IMG/VR virus record: IMGVR_UViG_3300029448_000515
Location: 1-21,620 of that record
From: a virus
DNA: 21,620 bases
Strand: one strand, 5' to 3'
The notes below the pieces were generated by a model. That model had not been told where the DNA came from, searched no databases, and saw only the letters and a list, made by a program, of their open reading frames with translations. The translations under genes and the position numbers were made by a program. Shown here in pieces: positions 6,332 to 15,008 of this stretch (the first letter of the stretch is position 1; every line of letters starts with the position of its first letter).

Positions 6332-6369
6332 GGGGGTGGTTGGTTTTCTTTCCTTTCCCTTCCACCCCC
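6332..6369. other. Hairpin with G/C stem and pyrimidine-rich loop
   Basis: GGGGGTGG (6332-6339) can pair perfectly with CCACCCCC (6362-6369), giving 8 base pairs and a 22-base loop that is mostly T and C (a homopyrimidine run at 6344-6363). It fills the only sizeable gap in the early operon, between the SSB stop and the exonuclease ribosome binding site. No U-tract follows the stem, so a classical terminator is unlikely. Candidates are an mRNA processing or stability element, a transcription pause site, or a replication-related structure. Confidence 0.55.
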
Positions 6370-11193: not shown

Positions 11194-11357
11194 GGCCATA
11201 CGAAGAGGGCATAAAGGACTTCAGGGAAGGTAACTTAGGTAACCCCCACAGACCTAACACAAAGCAGAGCAGGGAGTGGGAGATGGGTTTTAACAAAGCT
11301 TATTTCCGTAACCTTGAAAGGGTTAAGTTGAATGAACAAAAACAAAAAGAGTCTTGA
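11190..11357 (+). CDS. Ribosome modulation factor-like small protein (55 aa)
   Basis: The protein has the spacing of RMF, the 55-residue bacterial factor that binds 70S ribosomes and drives dimer formation and hibernation. Matching points are G7-x6-G14, N18-P19-H20 in place of the CPY of RMF, and W30-EM-G33-F34-NK-A37 for W-xx-G-W-xx-A. Length is identical to E. coli RMF. It overlaps DUF3310 by four bases and the next gene by 26. The similarity is by pattern, and other phage proteins with this small fold may not act on ribosomes, so an effect on host translation is an inference. Confidence 0.6.
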   Translation: MRPYEEGIKDFREGNLGNPHRPNTKQSREWEMGFNKAYFRNLERVKLNEQKQKES

Positions 11358-11553
11358 AGAAGAGGCTAAAAGTTACAGGCAGAAAAAAATAAAGCCACCG
11401 CTTAAGACCAAAGCACTTACATCTCGTAGGTACTTAGCTGGTCAAGCGATGGCTGCATTGTTATCAAGATCTCCTGGGCATGTTCATAAAGGAGATATAA
11501 AACGTGAGTCATATGATTGGGCAGACTTTATGTTAGAGGATGATGAGGACTAG
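11332..11553 (+). CDS. Conserved small phage protein, last gene of the early unit (73 aa)
   Basis: A basic N-terminus (MNKNKKSLEEEAKSYRQKKI) precedes TSRRYLAGQAMAALLSRSPG (residues 30-49), a helix I recall from small proteins in many marine phages, and an acidic C-terminus (ESYDWADFMLEDDED). Its function is unknown. The start overlaps the previous gene. The stop TAG (11551-11553) shares three bases of CTAG with the stop of the convergent late gene, and the last codons lie inside the left arm of a predicted terminator. Confidence 0.75.
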   Translation: MNKNKKSLEEEAKSYRQKKIKPPLKTKALTSRRYLAGQAMAALLSRSPGHVHKGDIKRESYDWADFMLEDDED

Positions 11554-11575
11554 AAACGCTCTAGCCTCATCTTTT
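11542..11575 (+). terminator. Predicted intrinsic terminator at the convergence point
   Basis: GATGAGG (11542-11548) plus CTAG (11550-11553) pair with CTAG (11561-11564) plus CCTCATC (11565-11571), with one bulged A at 11549 and a 7-base loop. Four T follow on the plus strand (11572-11575), so it should end the early transcript. On the minus strand the same stem forms at the end of the late transcript but lacks a good U-tract. The arms lie in the last codons of the early gene and the last codons of the late gene, so coding and terminator functions overlap. Confidence 0.65.
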
Positions 11576-14500
11576 CGTAGTCAAGGTAACCTTGTATAAG
11601 ATCTAGCTGCTTTAAAGTTAGGTCTTTAAACTCTGTACCTTGAGCTACTTCTTCTATAGCACCGTCTATATCTTCCCATTTATATTTTGATCCTATATCT
11701 ATAAGCTTTGCTAGTTGCATGTCACCAAGATCTTTAACACCTCTTTCCATCAGAGTTATTGTAACATCTTTAGCGTCTTTAAATAAATCTTTAACTAGTT
11801 TTTGTCTAAGCTTAAGTTTATTGATTTGTTTCTTAGGATCTCCCTCACGAAACGCTTTATATCTCAGTAGATCAGAGGACATATGCTCTATAATATCGTG
11901 AAAAATTTGATTATACCTATTGTCAGCAGAGGGATCTTTAGTTTTAAGGTTAGCTAAGTAAGTAGGTCTGCCAACCATAGACAAAACTTTCTTAGTGTCT
12001 GTCATAGTTACCTCACGATAACCTACCTGTTTAGAGGCATCAGATTTTATTTTACCTGTCGCCCCTGTAAACTGCTCCTCTGAAATATCTTTTCCAGAGA
12101 CTACAGCTATTATCTGATCCATGTAACGAAGACTGTTGTTGAGGGTCTCACTGCCAATTTTTCTATTAACCATTTTAAAATCAGATCCCCTAGCCAGACC
12201 CACAGCAGAGTTAATAGGGTCAAGAAATCTTGTCGCCCCTGAAACAGCTTGAGATGTTACTGCTTGAATAGGTTTAACTAAATCTTTTAAAGCTCTTTCT
12301 CCTTTAGGTGTTCCAAATTCTGTGATAGCAGTCATGGTCATGTCACCTAAGCCATCTGTAATTTGATTAAGTTGTCTTGTGATTTGACCTGGACCAAGTA
12401 TTTCAAGTATTTGAGTGAGTTCTTCTTGTGGCATCTGCATATCATCTAACTGATAAGAAAAAAATCTACCTAAAGCTTTAAAATGAGAAAGTGGAAAGTT
12501 ATATTTTTCACTTTTAACACCACCAGTTTCAGGGTCTATGCGTTCATCCCAAGATAATCCAAGCTCCCTATTGAGAGTTTCATTTTGAGCAAGAGTAAAT
12601 ATTGTAGTTAAACCTACAGCACCTCTTACCCCTAACTCTCTAGTGCTTCTTGGGCTTATAGACTTAGCCCCTAATAATTTTGTTGCAAAAGTAAGTCCTG
12701 TACTGTCTGCAGTGAAAGCTAGGGTATTATTAAAAAATCTACCAAAGGGTACAAGCAAACCTATACCTGCAACATCTCTAGCTTCTTCTATAATTTTAGG
12801 TACAAATCCCGCATCCTTATACGAAACAGCGAAGGTAGCTTTCTGTGTTTCATAAACAGCTTTGGCTACGATATCTTGATACTGCTTGGAGGTCATAGCC
12901 TTAGCTGCACCCTCATGGTTAAAGAACTCATTCCAACTCTTGTCGTAACCTACACGCAAGCCTTTATCTAATTGGTATACAAACTCTTGAGACTTAGTAA
13001 GTACATCTTGGCCCACAACAAAGTTTATTTTTTGTAGTAACTCAATACCTTGATCAGCCCTCATACCAATTATTGTAGCTTCAGGATCTACACCCATTTT
13101 CTTTATAGCATCTTCGACATCTACACCACCAGCCATCACTTGTGTTAGTTTCTCTAAAGCTTTAGGGTCTTTTTCTGCAATAGACATATATGCATCATAA
13201 GTCATATTAGTATCTAAAAGATTTTTAAGCCTTTGCCCTTGAGCATTCTTTAGTTGCCTAAATATACGAAGAGACTCTGACGCTTCTTTATTCTTACCTA
13301 ATACTTTATAGAGACCCGACTGCCCAAGGTAAGTTAAAGCCATACCAGCGTCAGTAACAGTATTGATCCCTGCAGCTGAACCATAGCCTACCATGTTAAG
13401 ATAGGATGTGCTTGGCGATGTCACAAGTAATCGTATAATTCTTTTTTGGACATCAACTACACCTTGATTAACTTTACCAAACCAACTTTTAACCTCTTTA
13501 GTTTTAACTGGACTATACTCTCCTACCCCTAACAGAGCTGCAGCAGTATCAGAGACAGTCATATTTTTTACAGTATCATCATCAAGACTTAACTTTTTTT
13601 GTACTTGAGACACTGCATTTAATAATCTACCCTGATCACTAATTTTTTTAGCAAATATATTTGAAAAAGATTCTATATCTATTTCTTGCTTGGAGGTTTT
13701 TCCAGACACTTTATCTGTCAACTTTACCATAGTTATACCAGTATTATTTTTAAAGTCCTCAATAAACTTAGCAGCATTTTGAGGGTCTGATTTTTTGATC
13801 ACATCAGCTACAAAGTTAGATACACTGTCTTCAGGGGTACGTTTTATATAAGCATACCCTTGTTCTACCATAATCTCAGCAAGGCCTTTTACTCCATTAT
13901 CGGAGTCTCCCAACAACATACTAATAAAAAAATCTGTATCTAAGTCTTGAAGTTCTTCTGCTTTGGCAGCTTTCTCTTTTAGCTTACTTGCGTAGGATAT
14001 AGAGGAAACAGCCTCTGATAAGTCTAAAGACTCAGGTTCTTTTACATCAATACTAGGCTTGACTAAGACATTTTTATTACTTCTAAGTGCAATAGGTGCT
14101 AGACGTATACCACCTATAATTAATGTACCCACTGCAGCAAGTCCAACATTAAGTTTACTTACTTCCTCTTGAACACCAGTCCTAACTAAACCTTTTTCAT
14201 AAGCATAAGCAGAGCCAATATTTACAGCCCCCTCTACAGCCATGTTAGCTGAGACTTCTTTAGCCACACCAGAGGTAAGACGACCCCTAATAGTGTCAGG
14301 GGCCTTTTCAATAGCCTCTCTTTTTGCAGCAAGTTTAACTGCATTGTCTTTAGCTACTTGATTAAAGGTGTTTTTCCATACCAGATTACTCTCTTTTACA
14401 GCAGCTTTCTTTGTAGCACCCCTACGTAACGCTTTTTTGTAAGCTTTTAAAGCAGTTCTTTGTGCAATCTTAGCGCCCACTTTAGATCCACTAGCAGTAA

Positions 14501-15008
14501 ATAGTTTACCTATACCAAAACCCACTAGGTTTATAGGGTCTAGTACAGTGCTCCTAACATAATCTCCGATAGCTTCTGCTTTTTCTCCCCTAGTAGTTTC
14601 TTTACTAAATACTCCGGCCATGTTTTCAAACAAGGCATAAGCCTCGCCAACAGCAGCAAGCTGCTCTTCATCTTCACCCAGACTATTTAAAAAGGCCACT
14701 TCATTAATAGCTCTAGTAGAGTTACCCCCAGAGAAACCTCGCATATTATTTAAAAACTTATTGACAACTTCTTCTTTGCTGTAGTCCCTAAACTCATCTA
14801 CACCAAATCTTTTTTCCATATAACGTTCAATCGACCCAAAATACTTATCGTCAGTAAGGTCGTTTTGAGAATAGGACTCCGGTACAATCTCTTGAACAGG
14901 TAGTGGATCTGATCTAGGTAAAATAGAATCGTTAGACTGAAGATTTTTCTGTTCGTCTTCATCTTCAAAAGTACCCATAGCTCTTCTAAGATCGTTTAAA
15001 GTAGTCAT
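11550..15008 (-). CDS. Large internal virion protein (1152 aa)
   Basis: This is the last and longest gene of the late unit, in the position where T7 has gp16. The 1152-residue product begins MTTLNDLRRAMGTFEDEDEQ with an acidic N-terminus, then a long helical body and several hydrophobic stretches: about residues 286-308 (LNVGLAAVGTLIIGG), plus later ones around GIGLLVPFGRFFNNTLAF and GAVGLTTIFTLA. Such mixed hydrophobic regions fit proteins ejected with DNA that span the cell envelope. No transglycosylase domain is visible; that activity sits in a separate upstream gene. The start is one base after the preceding stop, with GGAAGA upstream. The function is inferred from position and size. Confidence 0.7.
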   Translation of the reverse strand: MTTLNDLRRAMGTFEDEDEQKNLQSNDSILPRSDPLPVQEIVPESYSQNDLTDDKYFGSIERYMEKRFGVDEFRDYSKEEVVNKFLNNMRGFSGGNSTRAINEVAFLNSLGEDEEQLAAVGEAYALFENMAGVFSKETTRGEKAEAIGDYVRSTVLDPINLVGFGIGKLFTASGSKVGAKIAQRTALKAYKKALRRGATKKAAVKESNLVWKNTFNQVAKDNAVKLAAKREAIEKAPDTIRGRLTSGVAKEVSANMAVEGAVNIGSAYAYEKGLVRTGVQEEVSKLNVGLAAVGTLIIGGIRLAPIALRSNKNVLVKPSIDVKEPESLDLSEAVSSISYASKLKEKAAKAEELQDLDTDFFISMLLGDSDNGVKGLAEIMVEQGYAYIKRTPEDSVSNFVADVIKKSDPQNAAKFIEDFKNNTGITMVKLTDKVSGKTSKQEIDIESFSNIFAKKISDQGRLLNAVSQVQKKLSLDDDTVKNMTVSDTAAALLGVGEYSPVKTKEVKSWFGKVNQGVVDVQKRIIRLLVTSPSTSYLNMVGYGSAAGINTVTDAGMALTYLGQSGLYKVLGKNKEASESLRIFRQLKNAQGQRLKNLLDTNMTYDAYMSIAEKDPKALEKLTQVMAGGVDVEDAIKKMGVDPEATIIGMRADQGIELLQKINFVVGQDVLTKSQEFVYQLDKGLRVGYDKSWNEFFNHEGAAKAMTSKQYQDIVAKAVYETQKATFAVSYKDAGFVPKIIEEARDVAGIGLLVPFGRFFNNTLAFTADSTGLTFATKLLGAKSISPRSTRELGVRGAVGLTTIFTLAQNETLNRELGLSWDERIDPETGGVKSEKYNFPLSHFKALGRFFSYQLDDMQMPQEELTQILEILGPGQITRQLNQITDGLGDMTMTAITEFGTPKGERALKDLVKPIQAVTSQAVSGATRFLDPINSAVGLARGSDFKMVNRKIGSETLNNSLRYMDQIIAVVSGKDISEEQFTGATGKIKSDASKQVGYREVTMTDTKKVLSMVGRPTYLANLKTKDPSADNRYNQIFHDIIEHMSSDLLRYKAFREGDPKKQINKLKLRQKLVKDLFKDAKDVTITLMERGVKDLGDMQLAKLIDIGSKYKWEDIDGAIEEVAQGTEFKDLTLKQLDLIQGYLDYEKMRLERF

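Follow-up and report, generated by a model that had tools for sequence, protein, structure and literature searches.

The junction and its genes

Two convergent genes end against each other within the window, the name used here for the whole 21,620-nt stretch of viral DNA that was analysed (Table 1). The plus-strand open reading frames (ORFs) to the left of this junction include a primase-helicase with DnaB_C and Toprim domains, a DNA polymerase A, a MazG-like pyrophosphatase and a ribonucleotide reductase, the last of which is assigned by matching gene order in the roseophage CRP-9. On its right, the minus-strand ORFs have counterparts among the leftward genes of CRP-type roseophages. This gene content suggests that the rightward block is early and the leftward block is late. 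The original prediction, which placed the meeting point of early and late transcription here, agrees with this arrangement, in which rightward replication genes (primase-helicase, DNA polymerase and ribonucleotide reductase) would run into leftward late genes. The two proteins that end at the junction, of 73 and 1152 aa, have no Pfam or PHROGs match. The 73-aa early protein is strongly conserved (...RRYLAGQAMAALLSRS...YDWADFMLED) in more than 100 relatives from viral contigs, and homologues of the 1152-aa late protein are found at 25-30% identity in cultured roseophages.

Table 1 Features of the convergent junction (positions in the window)
Feature	Position	Strand	Basis
Last gene of the predicted early (replication) block, 73 aa, no family match	11332..11553	+	103 relatives in viral contigs
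Last gene of the predicted late block, 1152 aa, no family match	11550..15008	-	Homologue of CRP-9 gp36 (29%)
Hairpin 5' arm, with bulged A at 11549	11542..11554	+	Sequence, fold
CTAG, both stop codons in one 4-nt overlap	11550..11553	both	ORF calls; CTAG/TTAG/TTAA in 17 further late-family loci
Limit of nucleotide similarity where genomes share the early block but differ in the late block	11553..11554	both	Locus comparisons
Hairpin loop, AACGC	11555..11559	+	Fold
Hairpin 3' arm, entirely within the late gene	11560..11571	+	Sequence, fold
AT private to the window genome; TG in both nearest relatives	11569..11570	+	Alignment with relatives
TTTT tail, plus strand only	11572..11575	+	Sequence, fold

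Shared stop codons

The early ORF ends in ...LEDDED with a TAG stop codon at 11551-11553, and the late ORF ends in ...MRLERF with a TAG that is the complement of CTA at 11550-11552. The two ORFs therefore overlap by exactly 4 nt, and the ORF calls and the sequence both bear out the earlier statement that a single CTAG supplies TAG on both strands. CTAG is of the YTAR form that defines a 4-nt convergent stop overlap. In prokaryotes, such overlaps can take four forms, CTAA, TTAA, CTAG and TTAG, and in E. coli 19 of 58 convergent overlaps have a Rho-independent terminator within coding sequence (PMC2174442). The junction of the window belongs to exactly this tetramer class. It differs from those overlaps in lying at a phage early/late boundary, in having the tetramer itself within the arms of the stem and in carrying a hairpin that is not conserved. 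Stop overlaps that coincide with terminators in coding sequence are thus already a known kind of arrangement, of which the junction of the window is a tidy further example with a stem that uses the tetramer.

The stop overlap of 4 nt is inherited and is conserved across the late-gene family of the window, which comprises loci at 58-97% identity. All 18 late-family loci with a readable junction, the window included, have the 4-nt overlap, with CTAG in the window, L004 and L006, TTAG in 13 loci and TTAA in two. Some loci with other late genes share this kind of overlap, as CTAG in L057 and L058 and as TTAG in L059 and L066.

A hairpin across the stop codons

The sequence at 11542-11571 folds into a hairpin of 12 pairs (7 + 5) with a single bulged A, followed by TTTT. 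The 5' side of the stem consists of GATGAGG (11542-11548), the bulged A and CTAGA (11550-11554), and the 3' side of TCTAG (11560-11564) and CCTCATC (11565-11571). The fold confirms that the shared CTAG pairs with a second CTAG at 11561-11564; the bulge and the TTTT are also as originally described, and the number of pairs is 12 rather than 11. Both arms lie in coding DNA, as had been proposed: the 5' arm encodes D-E-D-stop of the early gene together with the late-gene stop, and the 3' arm consists of late-gene codons (K/M-R-L-E). The stem energy is -16.9 kcal/mol on the plus strand and -17.2 kcal/mol on the minus strand.

As would be needed for an intrinsic terminator on the plus strand, the hairpin is stable beyond chance. 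Its plus-strand fold has a z of -4.5 and is equalled by none of 200 shuffles, and it is the most stable plus-strand fold among all 42-nt windows of the 21.6 kb. It is also the sole inverted repeat there with at least 11 Watson-Crick pairs and at most one bulge; 0.25 inverted repeats of at least 12 pairs are expected per first-order Markov sequence. When both proteins are recoded synonymously according to the codon usage of the window, with the overlap retained, 7 of 20,000 versions fold at least as well (3.5e-4), which rules out that the hairpin is a by-product of the two proteins. When the Gln of the relatives replaces the Met of the window, only 1 of 20,000 recodings is as stable. In 177 kb of relatives, off-junction hairpins with a 42-nt energy of -20 or below occur at 0.028 per kb per strand. 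By chance, about 0.003 such hairpins are expected for the junction of the window alone and about 0.08 over 29 gapless junctions (about 2.9 kb), so that an incidental origin has room, even though one such hairpin is unlikely. An Rfam search of the window gave no match to a known RNA family.

Termination potential on the two strands

On the plus strand, the stem is followed by TTTTCGTAG, in which the RNA tail UUUU gives way to CG. With only four T in the tail (TTTTCGTAGT), the estimated terminator score of d'Aubenton-Carafa is -5; the usual cut-off of this score is 0. A terminator consensus scan of the window did not list the hairpin because the scan needs five T in eight. On the minus strand, the stem is followed by ATCATCCTC, which lacks a T tract, and the estimated score is about -50. 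A bidirectional terminator is ruled out by the minus-strand continuation, ATCATCCTCTAAC. A T tract follows the stem on the plus strand alone, so that the hairpin could at best terminate the early, rightward transcript, and weakly, and not the late, leftward one.

Junctions of relatives

Relatives were collected as 80 loci through the small early gene and as 18 loci, partly overlapping with these, through the C-terminus of the late gene, and three cultured roseophages were added. Their junctions split sharply into two classes, one with a spacer of 22-34 nt and one in which the genes abut or overlap (gap of -8 to +1 nt). All 33 distinct spacer junctions carry a terminator-like, GC-rich hairpin with T-rich flanks, which indicates that a terminator at this junction is normal for the group. 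The score of these hairpins is above 0 on the minus strand in 30 of the 33 and on the plus strand in 10. The cultured roseophages CRP-9, CRP-207 and CRP-603 belong to the spacer class and have such a hairpin. The hairpins of these three phages and of the viral contigs resemble that of the window in genomic position and in the T-rich tail. However, they are shorter, GC-rich, mostly minus-strand terminators placed in a spacer of 22-34 nt, whereas the window has no spacer.

None of the 29 distinct gapless junctions scores above 0, and the window is the only one within 10 of the cut-off. Its plus-strand score is close to the range of -6 to -13 in the junction class with a 31-nt gap. The gapless runner-up by stability, L009 (-16.8 kcal/mol), scores -34. 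Because 28 of the 29 gapless junctions have no hairpin of the window's grade, termination is not required at a gapless junction.

L004 and L006 are the only close relatives found whose junction could be read. They share the early gene of the window, and their late proteins are 91-97% identical to that of the window. Both retain the CTAG and an identical 5' arm, but the 3' arm reads TCTAGTCTCTGC in L004 and TCTAACCTCTGC in L006, with the loss of two to three stem pairs. Their junction folds are ordinary, at -11.6 kcal/mol (z of -1.2) in L004 and -7.1 kcal/mol (z of 0.0) in L006. The original prediction suggested looking for pairing maintained by compensatory changes in relatives. Among the window, L004 and L006, 4 of the 12 pairs vary, 5 of 36 cells are unpaired and no compensatory change occurs, so that these three sequences do not display the pattern of a conserved RNA structure. 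A pattern search for the window-type junction matched only the two relatives already known, and a DNA-level junction search of GenBank phages gave no match. The lack of a hairpin in relatives, which the original prediction named as evidence against itself, is thus largely what is seen, while the stop overlap is kept. Because the overlap is conserved without the hairpin, the coincidence of coding, stopping and terminating functions is at most particular to the window genome.

Origin of the completed stem

A quasi-palindrome across the stop codon was perfected by an adjacent double change in the window genome alone. The change from TG to AT at 11569-11570 mends two mismatches in an otherwise pairing outer stem of 7 bp and converts Gln to Met in the late protein. 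There are 46 derived changes private to the window in 3000 aligned columns, and this is one of only two tandem pairs among them; the derived state was polarised with L004 as the outgroup in a comparison of three sequences. The double change probably arose by a template switch between the arms or by selection for a terminator. A template switch would give both substitutions in one event, and template switching has been reported to create and perfect hairpins (PMC8794818). The likeness to those quasi-palindrome mutations lies in a clustered change by which mismatches in one arm are repaired from the other; the difference is that the window offers a single case of two bases, with ancestry taken from one outgroup.

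If the mutation process alone made the hairpin, by quasi-palindrome correction or template switch, the hairpin would have no role, and neither selection nor transcription would depend on it. A private double change that falls on both mismatches of a stem is consistent with such an origin, as are the precedent for template switching and the close relatives and 28 gapless junctions that exist without the hairpin. However, the hairpin adjoins a T tract at the one site where a terminator is expected, and a change from Gln to Met is not favoured by neutral drift. We consider this origin possible but doubtful.

Possible role of the hairpin

The reading that we put forward, at about even confidence, is a compact convergent early/late junction with an inherited CTAG, a perfected stem and a weak one-way terminator of the early transcript. 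The CTAG overlap was inherited at the convergent junction where the early and the late block of a marine phage meet, and a pre-existing quasi-palindrome over the stop was perfected by the adjacent double change in the window genome. Once the stop codon has been translated, the hairpin and UUUU would most likely serve the early transcript as a weak intrinsic terminator that works in one direction only. The late transcript gains nothing comparable from the hairpin, and relatives with the same overlap manage without it.

The hairpin may instead stabilise RNA 3' ends. Rho-ended or read-through transcripts would be trimmed back to the stem, which would then protect the 3' end on either strand. The stability of the stem on both strands is compatible with such a function, and another route for ending transcripts must exist at most gapless junctions because these have no intrinsic terminator. 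Nevertheless, no sequence evidence is specific to a stabiliser and the hairpin is not conserved, and we regard this function as improbable. Least probable is the original prediction of one selected unit that serves as the stop of both genes and as terminator of early and late transcription alike: its coordinates and pairing match the sequence, and its stops, coding stem and early/late position stand, but joint two-way termination fails on a T tract confined to one strand and on the absence of the hairpin from relatives that keep the overlap, which largely refute it.

The junction as an apparent boundary for block exchange

Comparison of loci reveals that near-identical early sides lead into different late sides, with the break falling exactly on the stop codon or where the terminator ends. 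The left sides of L064 and L070 are 99.9% identical over 4 kb, and their right sides share only the 34-nt terminator stretch. L019 and L020 are 96% identical over 3.3 kb on the left and have 38 nt in common on the right. L059 and L060 are 99.4% identical over 1.7 kb on the left, with nothing in common on the right. The window and L007 are 93% identical over 3.4 kb on the left, with no nucleotide match in the first 3 kb on the right. Altogether, a few early types are followed by 17 clusters of late sides, defined at 80% identity over 400 nt. The late proteins are mostly distant homologues (21-64% identity), and those of L005, L009, L058 and L060 have no full-length BLAST match to the late protein of the window. 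Assembly chimeras are an unlikely source of the block swaps because the junction types of the main examples each recur in contigs from several independent samples.

These comparisons tip the balance slightly towards the view that the convergent stop-stop junction is a recurrent crossover point for exchange of the whole late block. An early block, with or without a portable 3' terminator, would join at least 17 late types, one set of which has no full-length BLAST similarity to the others. Exchange would repeatedly leave either a gap of only -8 to +1 nt or a terminator of 22-34 nt. In the spacer class, crossover could use this terminator as a short linker of homologous sequence; gapless junctions offer no such linker. 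In roseophages, replication and morphogenesis modules have been reported to be swapped, and their precise boundaries were called elusive (PMC8528129). The genomes compared here are the same kind of phage with the same two blocks; in contrast to those elusive boundaries, the edges lie at the stop codon or at the terminator edge. The junction comparison thus resolves the edge of block exchange in roseophage-like genomes to the base, which could matter more than the hairpin; a hairpin on the stop codons is a neat yet single example of genome compression. Furthermore, these junctions, some with and some without a terminator, form a natural series for testing whether convergent phage operons need termination between them.

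Other features of the window

The region 2-460 of the window resembles, by eye, the C-terminal part of a tyrosine recombinase; this putative integrase would suggest a temperate phage. At 6332-6369, between two plus-strand genes, a perfect 8-bp repeat (GGGGGTGG/CCACCCCC) encloses a mostly pyrimidine loop of 22 nt and forms the second strongest fold on the plus strand of the window. L085, L086 and L087 also have strong folds similarly far from the junction, at about 5.2-5.6 kb.
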